From a virus, in the IMG/VR virus record IMGVR_UViG_3300046171_000023, positions 1 through 51,846 of that record: a stretch of DNA of 51,846 nt, one strand, 5' to 3'. The notes below the pieces were generated by a model. That model searched no databases. It was not told where the DNA came from and saw only the letters and a list, made by a program, of their open reading frames with translations. The translations under genes and the position numbers were made by a program. Positions 21,273-46,709 of the stretch are shown here, in pieces. Position 1 is the first letter of the stretch; every line of letters starts with the position of its first letter.

Positions 21273-21278
21273 TCCCTC

Positions 21279-21518
21279 CTAAATAAATAATTTAATTATA
21301 CCTGTCAGTAATACAAAAGTTGCTACTGCATTTAAAACTATCAAAGCTCTGTCGTTCCATAATAAACCTACTAAAGTCCACATAAAACATCCTATAAAAC
21401 TTAGTATTAAATCTATTTCTGGAAACTCTTGTAATGACCTGAAACAAATTGCTAGTATTATAAAGCAACTTGCAATCCATTTCAAGTACCAATCAGTCGT
21501 CTTTTCTTTTCTTGTCAT
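21279..21518 (-). CDS. Membrane protein, DUF6552-like (copy 1 of 2)
   Basis: A 79-residue protein with about three transmembrane segments (WIASCFIILAICF; LILSFIGCFMWTLVGLLW; ALIVLNAVATFVLLTGII). The NDRALIVLNAVA signature is typical of a small membrane family common in marine phages. A second gene at 22884-23129 encodes a protein nearly identical through the core, so the gene is duplicated within about 1.6 kb. Overlaps the 38-residue gene upstream. Function unknown. Confidence 0.75.
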   Translation of the reverse strand: MTRKEKTTDWYLKWIASCFIILAICFRSLQEFPEIDLILSFIGCFMWTLVGLLWNDRALIVLNAVATFVLLTGIIKLFI

Positions 21519-22883: not shown

Positions 22884-23129
22884 CTAAACTCCTATAAATA
22901 ATTTAATTAATCCTGTAAGTAATACAAAAGTTGCTACTGCATTTAATACTATCAATGCTCTATCGTTCCACATCAATCCTACTATAGTCCACATAAAACA
23001 ACCAATAAAACTTAACACTAAATCTATTTCAGGAAAGTTTTGAACAGACCTAAAACAAATTGCTAGTATTATAAAGCAACTAGCAATCCATTTTATATAC
23101 CAGTCTGCTGTTTTTTTTTCTACTTCCAT
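22884..23129 (-). CDS. Membrane protein, DUF6552-like (copy 2 of 2)
   Basis: An 81-residue homologue of the gene at 21279-21518: the segments WIASCFIILAICFRS and NDRALIVLNAVATFVLLTG are identical, with scattered conservative changes (SLQEF/SVQNF, LIL/LVL). About three transmembrane segments. The DNA differs at many third positions, so the duplication is not very recent. Overlaps the DUF3846 gene by ten bases. Confidence 0.75.
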   Translation of the reverse strand: MEVEKKTADWYIKWIASCFIILAICFRSVQNFPEIDLVLSFIGCFMWTIVGLMWNDRALIVLNAVATFVLLTGLIKLFIGV

Positions 23130-27220: not shown

Positions 27221-27249
27221 ATTATATGTTTTTTCTCGGCAGATGTCAA
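27221..27249 (-). promoter_or_regulatory. Perfect consensus sigma-70 promoter
   Basis: On the minus strand TTGACA (27249-27244), 17 bases, TATAAT (27226-27221). Both hexamers and the spacing are exact consensus. The upstream 46 bases are repeated almost exactly above a second promoter at 27623-27650. Predicted start near 27214; drives 27166 and the genes beyond. Confidence 0.85.
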
Positions 27250-27290
27250 GCGTTTTAACAAACTTAAGATATATTTATAATCTTAAAATT
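27245..27290. repeat. Promoter-upstream direct repeat, copy 1
   Basis: 46 bases matching 27646-27691 at 42 positions, all four differences being transitions. Contains the -35 box edge, ACAAACTTAAGATATA and the dyad TTAAGAT-N9-ATCTTAA. Its far end overlaps the stop codon of the 93-residue gene. An AT-rich UP element or a regulator binding site is likely. Confidence 0.8.
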
Positions 27291-27622: not shown

Positions 27623-27650
27623 ATTTTACCGACCAAGCCAAAAAAGTCAA
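27623..27650 (-). promoter_or_regulatory. Sigma-70-like promoter
   Basis: On the minus strand TTGACT (27650-27645), 16 bases, TAAAAT (27628-27623). Weaker than its twin at 27.23 kb but with the same 46-base upstream element. Predicted start near 27616, about 50 bases before ATG 27564. Confidence 0.65.
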
Positions 27651-27691
27651 GCGTCTTAACAAACTTAAGATATACTTATAATTTTAAGATT
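27646..27691. repeat. Promoter-upstream direct repeat, copy 2
   Basis: Second copy of the element at 27245-27290 (42 of 46 bases the same), at the same position relative to its promoter. It lies at the edge of the putative origin region. Confidence 0.8.
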
Positions 27692-27709: not shown

Positions 27710-27995
27710 CTTTAAAATTATACTTAAATTATACTTAAATTTAAAAGTGCAAAAACTTAAAATTAAATTTAAATTCACAGGTTATCCACAGATATTTTAT
27801 ACTTATCCACAGGTAATTAACAGGATATACATAAGATATACACAGATTTGCCCTCAATTACCTGCCCAAATTTTAAAAATCCCTCAACCACCTGCAATGA
27901 ACTTAAAACTCGAGCTTAAACTTAAACTTAATTAAATTAATTATTTCTTTGGTATGGTATCCTGTCAATTATAAAAAGCAATTACGAAGTAATTT
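27710..27995. other. Candidate replication origin with DnaA boxes
   Basis: Two perfect DnaA boxes TTATCCACA (27782-27790 and 27803-27811, 21 bases apart) and a degenerate one (ATATACACA, 27836-27844) lie about every two to three helical turns. They are flanked by AT-rich direct repeats: ATTATACTTAA twice in tandem (27717-27738) and CTTAAA three times (27914-27931). A hairpin AATTAC-GAA-GTAATT follows at 27980-27994. No gene is present. This resembles a bacterial-type origin, where host DnaA would open the flanking AT-rich DNA. Position between early and late blocks fits. Functional proof is absent. Confidence 0.55.
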
Positions 27996-28040
27996 CACTA
28001 TTAAGAATCAGATTTGTTTTAAAATATAACTTATAGACAT

Positions 28041-28073
28041 AAAAAAACTCTCCCACTTGTAAGGCGAGAGAGT
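28041..28073 (-). terminator. Rho-independent terminator
   Basis: On the minus strand ACTCTCTCGC pairs with GTGGGAGAGT (ten pairs, two of them G-U) around a seven-base loop and is followed by seven T's. It lies eleven bases after the stop of the gene at 28084 and ends the short leftward unit that starts at the divergent promoter. Confidence 0.88.
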
Positions 28074-28083
28074 CTTTGAGGCT

Positions 28084-28356
28084 TTAGTTAGCCTGTTGTT
28101 TGAGATACGAAGCTATCTTGTCAAGATATACTTTTGGAAGAGATTTGCCTGTAATAAGCGAATGAGCTTTCTTGAAGGTTAGTCTTTCTTCTTTAGCAAG
28201 GCTATAAAGACAGCCTGTAATTTGCTTTTGAAGCTTCCAGTTCATCTTAGTACCATTCTTAGCGAATTTGTACCCAATGGCTTGACATTGACGGAACGAA
28301 GCTGGGCTTGAAGTTCTGTCTTTGTCGAACGTGTTTATATCAAATGTATTTTCCAT
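28084..28356 (-). CDS. Conserved marine phage protein
   Basis: A 90-residue basic protein: after MENTFDINTFDKDRTS it has SPASFRQCQAIGYKFAK..., MNWKLQKQITGCLYSLAKEE, LTFKKAHSLITGKSLPK and YLDKIASYLKQQAN. I recall this SPASFRQ/WKLQKQ/FKKAHSLI pattern as recurrent in marine phages; function unknown. Strong ribosome-binding site (AAAGGAGAAAAAT). Last gene before the terminator near 28.05 kb. Confidence 0.75.
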   Translation of the reverse strand: MENTFDINTFDKDRTSSPASFRQCQAIGYKFAKNGTKMNWKLQKQITGCLYSLAKEERLTFKKAHSLITGKSLPKVYLDKIASYLKQQAN

Positions 28357-28367
28357 ATTTTTCTCCT

Positions 28368-28550
28368 TTAAGAAATGGATTTATAAATACCTGCAATGTA
28401 GTCTTGCAAGTGGTTAGTATCAGAAGCATTAGTGCATCTGACTTTCACAGCATGAATGCCACTTATGAATAAATCCATAGTGTACATTTGTGCTGAAGAA
28501 ATTGTTGGAAACTCTAGGGTTTCGTTGTTTGAGTAGCTGACTAGTATCAT
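28368..28550 (-). CDS. Small hypothetical protein
   Basis: A 60-residue protein, MILVSYSNNETLEFPTISSA..., with a beta start and a helix (AQMYTMDLFISGI) and a single Cys. AAGGAGATACT precedes ATG 28550. First coding sequence after the structured 1-kb stretch on the leftward transcript. Family not recognised. Confidence 0.65.
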   Translation of the reverse strand: MILVSYSNNETLEFPTISSAQMYTMDLFISGIHAVKVRCTNASDTNHLQDYIAGIYKSIS

Positions 28551-28581
28551 AGTATCTCCTTATTAAATAGGTTCTTTTGCA

Positions 28582-29245
28582 CATGAAGATTTTCAAGTAC
28601 AAGTGCTTGAGTTTTGTGAGGTTTTGGGAACAAAAGTTTTATAGATTTCCGAGTCTTCGAGGAAATACTGTAAACACTTGTACTTTAAAATCTTTATGTA
28701 ATTGTAAACCTGTTTAATGGAGATGCATATGATTCTTGTTAGGTACTTAAGCGACTAAGCCCAGAGTTTCCACGATTTATTAGTGCAAGTGTGCAGTATG
28801 GTTTTAGTCGTTAGTGGGATTTATGTTGTGGAACAAAAGCATGGGCTAATGCAAGGATGCTAAACACTTGGAAGGCTTTACAATTGCAGAGTATTTATGG
28901 ATTTGTTTCTTGAAGGAAGGGAAAATGTGAGAAAATCCTTTTGATATAGATGCGTTTGAGAACGACTAGAACTTCAGTTCAGATTTGTTTTGTCGGTGTC
29001 TCGCCATTGGTTATACAAATTACGTTAAGAGTGGTGCTTTAGTTGAACTAGGAAGGTTTTAAAGTAGATTAGAGGTTGTCAATGACATAGTCTTGATAGA
29101 GAAGGAAGACTCTTAAGCACCTTCAAGAAAGATTATTTGGGCATTTAAAATTTAGGCAAATCCCAAAAGTGTATCTTAGCACGATAGATTTGTGTCCAAA
29201 GAACAGAGCTGAGTAATGCCCAAAGAATCCGAAGCCTTCCAAGTG
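28582..29245. ncRNA. Candidate large structured RNA (or structured leader)
   Basis: About 1,040 bases (28551-29591) hold no gene, but much of the stretch is mutually complementary. Pairings: 28582-28605 with 28675-28698 (24 positions, one G-U, one mismatch); 28700-28708 with 28877-28885 (perfect 9); 28750-28758 with 28804-28812 (9, one G-U); 28865-28878 with 29232-29245 (perfect 14); 29131-29145 with 29215-29229 (14 of 15). Inside the first stem ATTTCC/GGAAAT and TTTTGT/ACAAAA make a three-way junction. The promoter at 29529-29557 would transcribe it leftward, while G-U pairs slightly favour the plus strand, so strand is left open. Size is in the class of giant phage RNAs such as GOLLD, but identity is not established. 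Confidence 0.5.
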
Positions 29246-29528
29246 GGAGAGAAACCACAAAGGTCTAAAGTTATACTCCACTCAAATATGATTTATAAGG
29301 TGGGCAGGAGACCATACCCTCTACCCTATATATCTATAGCATGATTATACATTTTCTAGGATAATGGTCATTAACCAGAACTAGTTAACGCCCCGACATT
29401 AAAACTCTAAAGTCTTTGTAGTATTTAAAGGTATTTATTACACCCACAATATAGTCTCTCTACTAGGGAGCCAATAGTTTTGGAGGGGGTGTGTTTTGGT
29501 TATATTGAACCCGGGAGGGCACAATGTT
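29246..29528. other. Non-coding stretch between structured block and divergent promoter
   Basis: No gene is visible. If transcribed from the leftward promoter it is the 5' 270 bases of the leader. Weak local pairings are present, for example GGTGT/ATACC near 29430-29444 on the minus strand and GGTT/AACC near 29500-29512. No tRNA cloverleaf can be drawn. Confidence 0.5.
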
Positions 29529-29557
29529 AGTATAGCATCTAAATCACGATTTGTCAA
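29529..29557 (-). promoter_or_regulatory. Leftward sigma-70 promoter (divergent pair)
   Basis: On the minus strand TTGACA (29557-29552), 17 bases, TATACT (29534-29529). Predicted start near 29522. It would read the structured stretch, then the genes at 28368-28550 and 28084-28356, to the terminator near 28.05 kb. Its -35 box faces the -35 of the rightward promoter 14 bases away. Confidence 0.82.
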
Positions 29558-29571
29558 TACCTAATTTAAAC

Positions 29572-29600
29572 TTGACAACTTTAAAATTAGAGTGTATACT
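29572..29600 (+). promoter_or_regulatory. Rightward sigma-70 promoter (divergent pair), late genes
   Basis: TTGACA (29572-29577), 17 bases, TATACT (29595-29600). The expected start, seven bases after the -10 box, is 29607, the A of the small-terminase ATG. TTGTCAA (29551-29557) and TTGACAA (29572-29578) form a seven-base inverted repeat joining both -35 boxes, where one bound protein could control both directions. Confidence 0.82.
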
Positions 29601-29606
29601 AGATTC

Positions 29607-30035
29607 ATGGCTATATTACCAAGTGTTGATACTACAACAACAAAAAGAGAACTAACAGATAAACAGAAGTCTTTCCTAGAGCACCTAGTTAATACTAGTG
29701 GTGATGCTAAGAAAGCTGCTGAACTTGCTGGTTATTCTTCACATTATCATCATGTTGTAAAGACTTTAAAGTCTGAGATACTAGAACTCACTCAAGAGAT
29801 ACTAGCAAACTCTGCACCTAAAGCAGCTTTTAAACTTGTAGAGATAATGGAATCTAAAAAACCTATAGTACAAGCAGCAAATAAACTTACTGCTGCACAG
29901 ACTTTATTAGATAGAGTTGGTGTTAGTAGAGTAGATAAAGTAGATGTAAATCATAACATGGCTAGTGGTGGTATCTTTTTGATGCCTGATAAAGCTCCTG
30001 TAGTTATAGATGCAGAGGATGCAGAGTATGACTAA
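29607..30035 (+). CDS. Terminase small subunit (probable), leaderless start
   Basis: Start set at ATG 29607; a GTG in frame at 29592 lies within the promoter. The 142-residue product has KRELTDKQKSFLEHL, the helix-turn-helix-like DAKKAAELAGYSS, a helical middle (APKAAFKLVEIM, AAQTLLDRVGVSR) and a C-terminal LMPDKAPVVID. This matches the small-terminase layout in marine podoviruses: DNA recognition at the N terminus, oligomerisation in the middle. No Shine-Dalgarno sequence precedes it. First gene of the rightward late unit, 2 kb before the large terminase. Confidence 0.78.
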   Translation: MAILPSVDTTTTKRELTDKQKSFLEHLVNTSGDAKKAAELAGYSSHYHHVVKTLKSEILELTQEILANSAPKAAFKLVEIMESKKPIVQAANKLTAAQTLLDRVGVSRVDKVDVNHNMASGGIFLMPDKAPVVIDAEDAEYD

Positions 30036-42200: not shown

Positions 42201-45200
42201 ATGGCTACTTATGTAAGACAAAGTTCATTCAGTGATGGAGATACAATCACTGCTGCACTATTTAATAATGAATTTAACCAATTAGTAAACGCATTTAATG
42301 TAAGCACAGGACATACCCATGATGGTTCTACAACTGGTGATGGTGGTCCAATTTCTAATTTATTTAGTAATGCTTTAGTATTTGGTACAAATGCCAACAC
42401 AGATATTGCTATAACATTTAACGCCACAACAAACGATGGTGTTTTAACTTGGAAAGAAGATGAAGATTATTTTGAATTTTCAGATGACTTATTAATTGCT
42501 ACAACAGAAAAAATACAGTTTAGAGATACAGCTATATATATTAATTCTAGTGCTGATGGACAATTAGATTTAGTAGCTGATACAGAAATACAAATAGCAG
42601 CAACTACAATAGACATGAATGGTAACGCTGATATATCTGGTAACTTAGGTATAGGTGGTAATCTAACAGTAACAGGTACTACAACTTTTAATGGTGGTAC
42701 AATTACTATGGGAGATGCAGCTACTGACAATGTTGTATTCGGTGCTGACGTAGACTCTAACATTATTCCAGATGATGATAATACTTATGACTTAGGTAGT
42801 TCTTCACAACAATGGAAAGATATTTATATTGATGGTGTAGCTTATTTAGATGCAATAGACTTTAACGGAACAACAATTACATCTACTGCTGCCGAGCTAA
42901 ATATATTAGACGGAGTAACATCCACAGCAGCCGAGCTCAATATTCTTGATGGAGTTACCTCAACTGCTGCTGAACTAAATATATTAGACGGAGTTACAGC
43001 AAGTGCTACAGATATTAATCTTATTGATGGTATAACTAACGGTACGGTAATCGCAAGTAAAGCAATTATTACTGACTCTAATAAAGATATTACAGGTGGT
43101 AGAAATATTACTATTACTGGTGAACTTGATGCAGCTACATTAGATATATCAGGCAACGCAGATATTGACGGTACACTTGAAACAGATGCACTATCTATAA
43201 ACGGTACAACAATTACAAGCACCGCAGCTGAGTTAAATATATTAGACGGTGTAACTTCAACTGCAGCTGAACTTAATATCCTTGACGGTGTTACAAGCAC
43301 TGCAGCAGAGTTAAACATTTTAGATGGTGTTACAGCTAGTGCAACAGACATTAATCTTATTGATGGCATAACTAATGGAACTGTCATAGCTAGTAAAGCT
43401 ATTATAACAGATGCTAATAAAGATATTACTGGTGGACGAAACATTACAATTTCTGGAGAACTTGATGCAGCTACACTAGACATTTCAGGTGATGTAGATA
43501 TTGATGGTACTTTAGAAGCTGATGCTATTACAGTAAATGGTACAACATTAGCAGAAACAATTAGTGATACTGTAGGTGCTATGGTAACAAGTAATACTGA
43601 AAGTGGTATTACAGTAACATATGATGATTCAGATAATACATTAGACTTTACAGTAGGAACACTTAACCAAGATACAACAGGTACAGCAGCAGTAGCTACA
43701 ACAGTTACTATTACAGATAACGAAAACACAAACGAAAATAACGCACTTATCTTTACAGCCGGTGGAGATTTAGATGGTGGTAATTTAGGTTTAGAATCAG
43801 ACGGTGATTTAAAATACAATCCAAGTACAGGAACATTAAGCGTACCTAACGTATCAGTAAGTGGCACATTTAGTACAGTCAATAGTGTTACTATGGATGC
43901 TAATAATGCTGTAATCTTTGAAGGTGCTACAGCTGATGCACACGAAACAACTTTAACATCTATTGATGCTACTGGTGACAGAACAATTAGTTTACCTAAT
44001 GTATCTGGAACACTACCAGTTTTAGCAGCAGCTTCAGCTACAGCAATTACTTCTACACCTGAAGAGTTAAATATTCTTGATGGAGTTACATCAACTGCAG
44101 CAGAACTAAACATACTTGATGGAGTTACTAGTACTACTGCCGAACTTAATATACTTGATGGTGTAACAGCTACTGCAACAGAAATAAATCTTATAGATGG
44201 CGTAACTGCAACAACTGCAGAGTTAAATATTCTTGATGGTGTGACAGCTACAGCAGCAGAAATAAATGCTCTTGATGGCATTACTTCAACGGTTGCAGAA
44301 CTTAATATCCTTGATGGTGTTACAGCTAGTGCAGCAGATATAAATCTTATAGATGGTATAACAAATGGAACAGTAATAGCAAGTAAAGCTATTATAACAG
44401 ATTCAAACAAAGACATTACTGGTGGTAGAAATATTACTATTAGTGGTGAATTAGACGCTGCTACTTTAGACATCTCAGGCGATATAGACGTAGACGGAAC
44501 TACTAACCTAGATGTAGTAGATATAGACGGAGCTGTAGATATGGCTTCTACACTTACTATTGCAGGTGCCATTAATGGTGCAACTATAAAAGCTGATACT
44601 ACCAACTTTGTAAATAGTTATTTAATTAGCCAAGATGCAAGTACAGGAACTTTATCAAGTGCATCAAACAATACAGGGTTAGGCGATAGTGTTTTTGCTG
44701 CATTAACCTCAGGCACACATAATACTGGTATAGGTAATGTCGCTTTAAATGCAAATACCACAGGTGGCGGAAATACAGCTATTGGTAGTTTTTCATTAAA
44801 TGATGCAACTACTGGCGATAATAATACTGCCGTTGGTTTTCAAGCATCAAGATACCTTACTACAGCTTCATCTACAACTGCTATAGGATATAGAGCAGGA
44901 GCAGGTGCGGGTGGTTCTAGTGTAATGACTGGTGATAACAATACATTAGTTGGACTTGATGCAGGTAGGTTAATAACTTCAGGTCATAGTAATACAGCAA
45001 TAGGTGCAGAAGCCCTAGATGCTAATACTGATGGTGTATCAAATACAGCAATAGGTATGCAATCTTTAACTTCAAATACCTCAGGTATAAATAACGCAGC
45101 AGTTGGTAGATATGCTTTATATAATAATACAACTGGTGGTTCTAATACTGCTATGGGTTTACAAGCACTCTTTACAGCAACTACTGCAAGTGAAAATACA

Positions 45201-46709
45201 GCTTTTGGTTTTCACGCCTTATTAGCAAATACTTCGGGTGCAAACAACGTGGCAGCTGGTTATCAAGCCATGGACGCAAATACAACTGGTGGTTCAAACA
45301 CAGCAGTCGGTTCAGCAGCTCTTGGTGCTAATACCACCGCATCAAATAATGTAGCGGTTGGTAATGGTGCTATGGCAGCTAATACGACAGGCGACCAAAA
45401 TGTAGCAGTAGGTGCTATATCACTAGATGCGAATACGACAGGAATAAGAAACACAGCAGTTGGTTATGAAGCATTGACCGACAGCAATGGAACAAATAAT
45501 ACTGCTTTAGGTCATACAGCCTTAGCAAATCTCACCACAGGAAATTCAAATACCGCAGTTGGCTATAACACCTTAACAGCTCTTACTACAGGCGGGTCTA
45601 TGGTTGCTGTAGGAACAGATGCTTTTGCCGCAAATACAAGCGGAGATAAAGGTACAGCTATTGGTTTTGCAGCTTTAGCAGCAAATACTACTGCCGTTCA
45701 CAATACAGCATTGGGTTATCAAGCTCTCACAGCAAACACAACTGGCGGAAACAACACCGCAGTTGGTAAAGGTGCATTAGATGCGAATACTACAGCTACG
45801 AACAATACAGCTATGGGTGTAGATGCTCTAGGAGCAAACACTACAGGTGAATATAATACCGCAATTGGTCGTGAAGCACTTAAAGTAAACACTACTGCTG
45901 CTGCAAACACAGCTATAGGTAATCAGGCATTAGTTGCAAACACAACAGGTCAATATAATACTGCTCTTGGTTCAGGTGCTTTGCTTTCTAATACTACAGG
46001 AGACCTTAGTGTAGCGGTTGGTCTGAACGCTTTGGTATTAAGCACCACAGGTTATCAAAATACTGCTGTTGGTTATAACGCACTTGATGCTACAACGACA
46101 GGATTTCAAAACACAGCTATAGGTTTAAATGCTGGTACTTCACACACTACAGGAGATGGTAATATTTTTGTAGGATTTGAATCAGGTGAAGATATGACCA
46201 CAGGTTCAAACAATACTATTATTGGAAAACAGGCTGCAAAAAACGGTACTACTGGTTCAAATAATACTTGTTTAGGTTATTTAGCAGGTCATTCTAATTC
46301 ACCTTTTACACTTACTTCACAGAGTAATAAAGTTGTTATAGGTGATGAAAATGTAGATGCAGCTTATATACAAGTTGACTGGACTATAGCCTCAGATGCA
46401 AGAGATAAAACTGAAGTAGAAAACATATTAGTAGGCTTAGATTTAGTTAATGATTTAAGACCAGTATCTTTTAAATATACAGACAATAGAGAAAATAATA
46501 ATCCTGTAGGAAAAACTAAATACGGATTTTTAGCACAAGAAATTTTAGCACTTGAAGGTGATAAACCAGTTATAGCTGATAATGAACAAGAAGATAAATT
46601 AAAAATTACCAATAGTAATTTAACAGCAGTATTGGTAAAAGCAGTTCAAGAACTATCTAGTCAAGTAGATGAATTAAAAGCTGAAATAATAACTTTAAAA
46701 GGAGAATAA
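42201..46709 (+). CDS. Long tail fibre with YadA-like repeats and S74 autoprocessing chaperone
   Basis: A 1502-residue adhesin. The N-terminal ~220 residues probably attach to the tail. Residues ~225-800 hold many copies of TSTAAELNILDGV and three copies of a ~60-residue unit (DINLIDGITNGTVIASKAII...). Residues ~830-1360 are about 22 repeats of ~23 residues (NTAVGxxALxxNTTGxxN), as in YadA-type trimeric adhesin heads. From ~1393 is a Peptidase_S74 intramolecular chaperone (TIASDARDKTEVENI... KYGFLAQEI), with the self-cleavage Ser in SDARDK, and a terminal coiled coil (VQELSSQVDELKAEI). The chaperone should trimerise the fibre and be released. This is the likely host-receptor protein. Confidence 0.93.
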   Translation: MATYVRQSSFSDGDTITAALFNNEFNQLVNAFNVSTGHTHDGSTTGDGGPISNLFSNALVFGTNANTDIAITFNATTNDGVLTWKEDEDYFEFSDDLLIATTEKIQFRDTAIYINSSADGQLDLVADTEIQIAATTIDMNGNADISGNLGIGGNLTVTGTTTFNGGTITMGDAATDNVVFGADVDSNIIPDDDNTYDLGSSSQQWKDIYIDGVAYLDAIDFNGTTITSTAAELNILDGVTSTAAELNILDGVTSTAAELNILDGVTASATDINLIDGITNGTVIASKAIITDSNKDITGGRNITITGELDAATLDISGNADIDGTLETDALSINGTTITSTAAELNILDGVTSTAAELNILDGVTSTAAELNILDGVTASATDINLIDGITNGTVIASKAIITDANKDITGGRNITISGELDAATLDISGDVDIDGTLEADAITVNGTTLAETISDTVGAMVTSNTESGITVTYDDSDNTLDFTVGTLNQDTTGTAAVATTVTITDNENTNENNALIFTAGGDLDGGNLGLESDGDLKYNPSTGTLSVPNVSVSGTFSTVNSVTMDANNAVIFEGATADAHETTLTSIDATGDRTISLPNVSGTLPVLAAASATAITSTPEELNILDGVTSTAAELNILDGVTSTTAELNILDGVTATATEINLIDGVTATTAELNILDGVTATAAEINALDGITSTVAELNILDGVTASAADINLIDGITNGTVIASKAIITDSNKDITGGRNITISGELDAATLDISGDIDVDGTTNLDVVDIDGAVDMASTLTIAGAINGATIKADTTNFVNSYLISQDASTGTLSSASNNTGLGDSVFAALTSGTHNTGIGNVALNANTTGGGNTAIGSFSLNDATTGDNNTAVGFQASRYLTTASSTTAIGYRAGAGAGGSSVMTGDNNTLVGLDAGRLITSGHSNTAIGAEALDANTDGVSNTAIGMQSLTSNTSGINNAAVGRYALYNNTTGGSNTAMGLQALFTATTASENTAFGFHALLANTSGANNVAAGYQAMDANTTGGSNTAVGSAALGANTTASNNVAVGNGAMAANTTGDQNVAVGAISLDANTTGIRNTAVGYEALTDSNGTNNTALGHTALANLTTGNSNTAVGYNTLTALTTGGSMVAVGTDAFAANTSGDKGTAIGFAALAANTTAVHNTALGYQALTANTTGGNNTAVGKGALDANTTATNNTAMGVDALGANTTGEYNTAIGREALKVNTTAAANTAIGNQALVANTTGQYNTALGSGALLSNTTGDLSVAVGLNALVLSTTGYQNTAVGYNALDATTTGFQNTAIGLNAGTSHTTGDGNIFVGFESGEDMTTGSNNTIIGKQAAKNGTTGSNNTCLGYLAGHSNSPFTLTSQSNKVVIGDENVDAAYIQVDWTIASDARDKTEVENILVGLDLVNDLRPVSFKYTDNRENNNPVGKTKYGFLAQEILALEGDKPVIADNEQEDKLKITNSNLTAVLVKAVQELSSQVDELKAEIITLKGE

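Follow-up and report, generated by a model that had tools for sequence, protein, structure and literature searches.

An early phage operon and its non-coding mirror copy: a conserved 1.37-kb hairpin and candidate rod-shaped RNA in marine phages

The window analysed here is the IMG/VR record IMGVR_UViG_3300046171_000023, a phage sequence of 51,846 nt, and all coordinates refer to this whole stretch. It contains an early operon of two small genes on the minus strand, both preceded by ribosome-binding sites. The first, g60 (28368-28550), is a family-conserved ORF of 60 aa, and the second, g90 (28084-28356), encodes an all-helical protein of 90 aa with the invariant start MENTFDIN. Among relatives, both diverge to about 45-50% identity. 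An intrinsic terminator, conserved across loci, closes the operon (28043-28077, minus strand). Neither protein has a known homologue: g60 matched no PHROG, Pfam or PDB fold, g90 gave no family match, and a Foldseek search of both against the PDB found nothing significant. To the right of the operon lies a region without any ORF of at least 60 aa (28551-29591), i.e. the gene-free gap of about 1 kb named in the original prediction, and then by the terminase small subunit gene, terS (29592-30035, plus strand, with the ATG at 29608 as the likelier start).

The gap mirrors the adjoining operon imperfectly, both ORFs and the terminator included. Positions 28655-29298 (arm B, non-coding) are an inverted copy of 28001-28618 (arm A, which holds the operon and its terminator), with 467 of 654 aligned columns identical and a local E-value of 7e-73. 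The palindrome has an E-value of 1e-131 and is the sole long inverted repeat in the 51.8-kb record. The hairpin extends from 27951 to 29318, about 1.37 kb. At its tip (28576-28706, plus strand; helices 27-28, 94-95% paired) a conserved stem closes a branched domain with two small hairpins. Its base is formed by a helix beyond the operon terminator, where 27951-27966 pairs with 29303-29318 (GGCAGGAGACCATACC, plus strand). Within arm B, the inverted copy of the terminator (29221-29251, plus strand) has lost both its stem (CCGAAGCC) and its U-tract, and the same nearly invariant sequence is found in 13 out of 13 aligned loci; this conserved loss is relevant only if plus-strand transcripts must read through. 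Of the lost g60 copy, a ribosome-binding site and a start codon are still recognisable at 28715-28760 (plus strand), with a stop after nine codons.

When the plus-strand RNA of 27931-29345 is folded, a minimum free energy of -677 kcal/mol and 529 arm-arm pairs are obtained, and the predicted structure is a rod, a series of helices interrupted by small bulges and internal loops. The gap folded alone also beats 20 out of 20 dinucleotide shuffles on both strands (z -4.85 minus, -3.80 plus). The original prediction placed a giant structured RNA inside the gap. What stands is a very large, conserved and covarying structure; a self-contained multi-domain RNA within the gap does not, because half of the structure is the g60-g90 operon and the feature runs from 27951 to 29318. 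That reading had thus caught half of the feature and missed the inverted copy. The long stem it described, with 24 positions, is present as a stem of 24-28 positions (28581-28608/28672-28699) and is the tip of the larger hairpin. The perfect 14-base match is also real (28865-28878/29232-29245); as a main helix it was rejected, as it lies inside arm B and competes with the rod.

To the left of the hairpin, in AT-rich DNA, there are two exact DnaA boxes (TTATCCACA) 21 nt apart on the plus strand, at 27782-27790 and 27803-27811, and up to four are seen in relatives. According to these matches, the region directly left of the hairpin is a probable replication origin in the window's group. A CCCTCAA(C/T).. 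motif, spotted by eye in the loci printed, is repeated twice, at 27851 and 27881. To the right, a near-invariant single-copy motif, CCCTATATATCTATAGCATG (29319-29341, plus strand), adjoins the base; it is almost invariant in the family and a candidate packaging site (cos/pac, terminase-binding) or regulatory site. It is followed by a second conserved block and by divergent promoters, one for terS and one for a leftward transcript. The latter is the leftward promoter foreseen originally, TTGACA-17-TATACT with TG at 29557-29529 (minus strand), a sigma-70 promoter conserved in all loci and directed into arm B. A phage single-subunit promoter at a TATAGGG-like motif was considered and rejected, the motif being effectively single-copy (the next site in the window has at least three mismatches); a non-exhaustive scan of the large ORFs found no RNA polymerase.

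Elsewhere in the window, a 46-bp element occurs at 27245-27290 and 27646-27691 as a 91% identical repeat next to the -35 box of two leftward promoters, possibly a shared early-promoter control box. A direct duplication (21276-21508 and 22889-23119, 85% identical) covers two small early ORFs of 79 and 81 aa. A tail protein of 1502 aa (42848-46125) has tandem internal repeats and a C-terminal Peptidase_S74 domain, and a reverse-strand open frame of 587 aa opposite to it is probably spurious.

Judged by TerL, the nearest named relatives are the pelagiphages HTVC115P, HTVC103P and HTVC104P (65% identity), and the HMO-2011 group shows 47%; the phages belong to a widespread and abundant marine group. 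Homologues were found neither in named phages nor in GTDB genomes, and the palindrome is absent from HTVC115P and HTVC103P, the two that were checked. A stretch similar to the motif beside the base, GGGTAG.GGGTATGG, is seen upstream of terS in HTVC115P.

In IMG/VR, g90 has 60 relatives on dsDNA phage contigs of 4-55 kb, nearly all with the same order of terS, a gap of 860-1118 nt, g60 and g90. The test set consisted of the 58 loci that were complete enough, plus the window. The pairing expected in homologous gaps was found throughout, as a mirror copy is present in 58 out of 58 complete relatives, with arm alignment scores of 264-683 compared with at most 66 after shuffling. Within a locus, the two arms are 76-88% identical. 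Between loci, arm A is 58-91% identical to arm A of the window, and arm B is 42-60% identical to the window's arm B in most loci. Arm B follows arm A in each phage: the mean arm score is 434 for a locus's own arms and 154 across loci. The portions conserved in sequence are the tip, the base and 290 nt beside terS. One locus, L014, has a mosaic hairpin. Its inner half, on the g60 side, is similar to L007 and its outer half, on the g90 side, to L012; this holds for both arms, as if the inner section had been swapped as one piece.

The CCCTATATATCTATAGCATG motif is found exactly in 45 IMG/VR contigs. In three of these (L121, L125 and L138) terS is present with a different pair of small genes, of 58-63 and 114-121 aa, for which no relatedness to g60/g90 was detectable; homology of the L138 pair in particular was considered and dropped for this reason. 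These loci keep a reduced layout: base helix and tip are both there, together with complementary segments of 9-15 bp in colinear order, in total 66-106 nt compared with at most 36 in shuffles. Among the segments are some that coincide with or adjoin the first gene's ribosome-binding site and some that lie close to where the second gene starts. The frame thus outlives the genes within it.

Covariation, which the original prediction proposed to check, was tested on 13 loci aligned with MAFFT; the alignment is not fitted to the structure, which was taken from one of these sequences. Standard pairs make up 81.9% of the pair cells, and 38-46% when the partners are displaced by 1-3 columns. Both sides have changed in 348 cells, compared with a shuffled mean of 134, and pairs with double-sided changes number 139, compared with 84; in neither case did any of 500 shuffles reach the observed value. 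Compensatory base changes, as expected for a structured RNA, thus exceed both the shuffled and the slid controls, although the counts may be inflated by the relatedness of the loci. Covariation by itself cannot separate selection for pairing from repeated gene conversion. Because of the relatedness and the single-sequence structure, we rely on covariation taken together with the strand pattern and the base helix. This helix is found in 31 out of 32 loci, lies outside the operon's transcript, and covaries, taking the forms GGTATGG/CCATACC, GGTGTGG/CCACACC, GGAGTGG/CCACTCC, GGCATGG/CCATGCC and GCTATGGTC/GACCATAGC in different lineages.

The differences between the arms show a strand preference. 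Of the 67 transitions that separate the two arms in the window, 56 leave a G.U pair on the plus strand, compared with 11 that leave one on the minus strand (p 2e-8). Plus to minus counts of 61:7, 59:5, 48:6 and 47:9 are found in other loci of this wobble type. At least two lineages, including that of the window, show the wobble state; on a tree of g60 and g90 it requires four parsimony changes, at least two of them forced by well-supported branches, and the strand is always the same. The differences in these loci are spread evenly across codon positions, so the changes arose mostly in the non-coding arm B. Folding energies in the wobble lineages favour the plus strand over the minus strand by about 65-230 kcal/mol. 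The preference is limited to these lineages, and elsewhere both strands fold equally well; the other lineages interrupt the duplex by bulges or internal loops. The energy of the tip was rejected as evidence for the strand: it is lower on the plus strand in nearly all loci, but the z-scores are equal on both strands, so composition explains the difference.

The arms might also be an inverted duplicate without function, kept alike by gene conversion or template switching and otherwise decaying in the ordinary way. Conversion would likewise make arm B follow arm A, and the distances between the copies agree with a copy that is refreshed and has decayed by about 20%. The differences do not follow the mutation pattern of the genome, however. 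Neutral (fourfold) sites are 7-10% GC, and G and C are about equally frequent there on either strand. Mutation bias therefore fails to account for A-to-G and C-to-T changes confined to one strand, and decay would not yield such one-sided transitions against an AT-rich neutral composition. Some lineages are almost without transitions (in L007 there are 11, compared with 59 transversions between the arms), and roughly half of the loci tested have a helix spacing more even than chance (p<0.01). That the copy has persisted in every one of the 58 complete loci of a compact phage genome is also hard to reconcile with a lack of function, and we regard this explanation as highly improbable.

A second explanation starts from the promoter at 29529. 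A minus-strand transcript from it would carry arm B as a cis-antisense leader that folds onto g60-g90 and blocks the ribosome-binding sites, so that translation is delayed or silenced, and other transcripts would express the two genes. This agrees with the conservation of the sigma-70 promoter in all loci, with arms that span the whole operon, with a minus-strand fold that is still huge (-449 kcal/mol, 444 arm pairs), and with the complementarity retained in the distant clade, which covers the g60 ribosome-binding site as well as the opening codons of the second gene. However, the changes in the wobble lineages are A.C mismatches on the minus strand, where they cost about 65-230 kcal/mol relative to the plus strand, and the base helix covaries though it lies beyond the minus-strand terminator. 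The very long leader of the original prediction is therefore possible on the minus strand. The plus strand is favoured, however, by the position of the base helix and by the wobble pattern seen in the clade of the window, and we consider the leader rather unlikely.

A further explanation is that the palindrome acts at the DNA level, as a cruciform or a hairpin of the single plus strand used in replication or packaging, near the DnaA-box origin and the terminase genes. The position between the probable origin and the near-invariant motif beside terS fits this, as does a base helix outside the operon transcript. In single-stranded DNA, G.T is also the milder mismatch, which fits the wobble pattern too. 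In a cruciform the two strands take part equally, and the one-strand bias would therefore require single-stranded plus-strand DNA. The conserved destruction of the terminator copy is left unexplained, and DnaA boxes are absent in several groups that retain the hairpin. We therefore see the DNA explanation as distinctly unlikely.

The architecture of the element, its conservation and the coevolution of its arms are established at the level of sequence. From the strand pattern we infer that the selected molecule is the plus-strand RNA, antisense to g60-g90, at least in the wobble lineages. To the reading of the whole element as a selected giant self-complementary RNA, made from the plus strand of an operon and its own mirror copy and shaped as a rod of about 1.37 kb, we give an even chance. 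Transcription would proceed rightward from the origin side through arm A, the tip and arm B to the base helix. In this RNA, arm A would correspond to the g60-g90 operon in reverse and the tip to a conserved branched domain. Arm B would derive from an inverted duplicate that has lost its coding but retained the ability to pair with arm A, so that the RNA would fold into the rod. The conserved promoter at 29529-29557 points opposite to this proposed transcript, and to the left of the base no convincing candidate for a conserved plus-strand promoter was seen. A long perfect palindrome is unstable in DNA, which is probably why G.U pairs, bulges or internal loops interrupt the duplex. As to its role, we tentatively take as most likely an antisense-type RNA that would repress or time g60-g90 at the junction of origin and late/packaging genes. 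Arm A would bind the operon's mRNA perfectly and be masked by arm B imperfectly, which would allow the mRNA to displace arm B.

A rod RNA of this kind, if it exists, would rank among the largest structured phage RNAs, with half of it doubling as coding sequence. It would open to testing how phages tolerate giant palindromes, how a long self-paired RNA escapes RNase III, and how one sequence is shared by coding and structure. We tentatively suggest, at slightly under even chances, a new class of phage RNA, in which the non-coding mirror of an operon is kept and the region is expressed as a rod RNA of more than 1.3 kb, with a conserved tip and base, arms that change together and an exchangeable gene pair.

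We know of no other DNA virus in which an operon and its decayed inverted copy are kept complementary over 0.6 kb by selection, and no description of such an element was found in the open-access literature searched. A survey of HMO-2011-type phages makes no mention of such a feature (PMC9038755). Among the Rfam covariance models, none matched the window at gathering level, including GOLLD and the other large RNA families to be scanned according to the original prediction; at E<=1 only mir-5014 and MIR6217 appeared, far below their cut-offs, as chance matches. The proposed assignment to GOLLD-type RNAs, and likewise to ROOL or another Rfam family, was therefore dropped. GOLLD and ROOL are giant ornate RNAs of phages and prophages (PMC12286853). 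They share with the element a very large structure in a phage, found by covariation, but they are multi-domain, whereas the hairpin here is one continuous rod with a branched tip, half of which overlaps protein-coding genes. GOLLD is also often near tRNA genes, and the window is without any tRNA gene.

Obelisks are viroid-like rods that encode Oblin-1, a protein of about 200 aa (PMC11922315). Here too the fold is rod-like over the whole element, with its 529 arm-arm pairs over 1.37 kb, and as in viroid-like rods of about 1 kb or more the ORFs lie on one side. Unlike Obelisks and viroid-like RNAs, which are covalently closed circles of RNA and have no DNA stage, the element is encoded in dsDNA phage contigs; its ORFs of 60 and 90 aa are set apart from Oblin-1 by length, the strand favoured in the wobble lineages is the non-coding one, and no ribozyme family matched at the element. 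Cis-encoded antisense RNAs of phages and plasmids are a known class, and the RNA proposed here would likewise be antisense to a small early operon. It differs in that the antisense region has its own mirror partner, with which selection has apparently kept it complementary over 0.6 kb. Imperfect DNA palindromes at origins are also a known type and share the inverted repeat near a likely origin, but the present one has arms of about 0.6 kb, one of them coding, and a wobble bias towards one strand.
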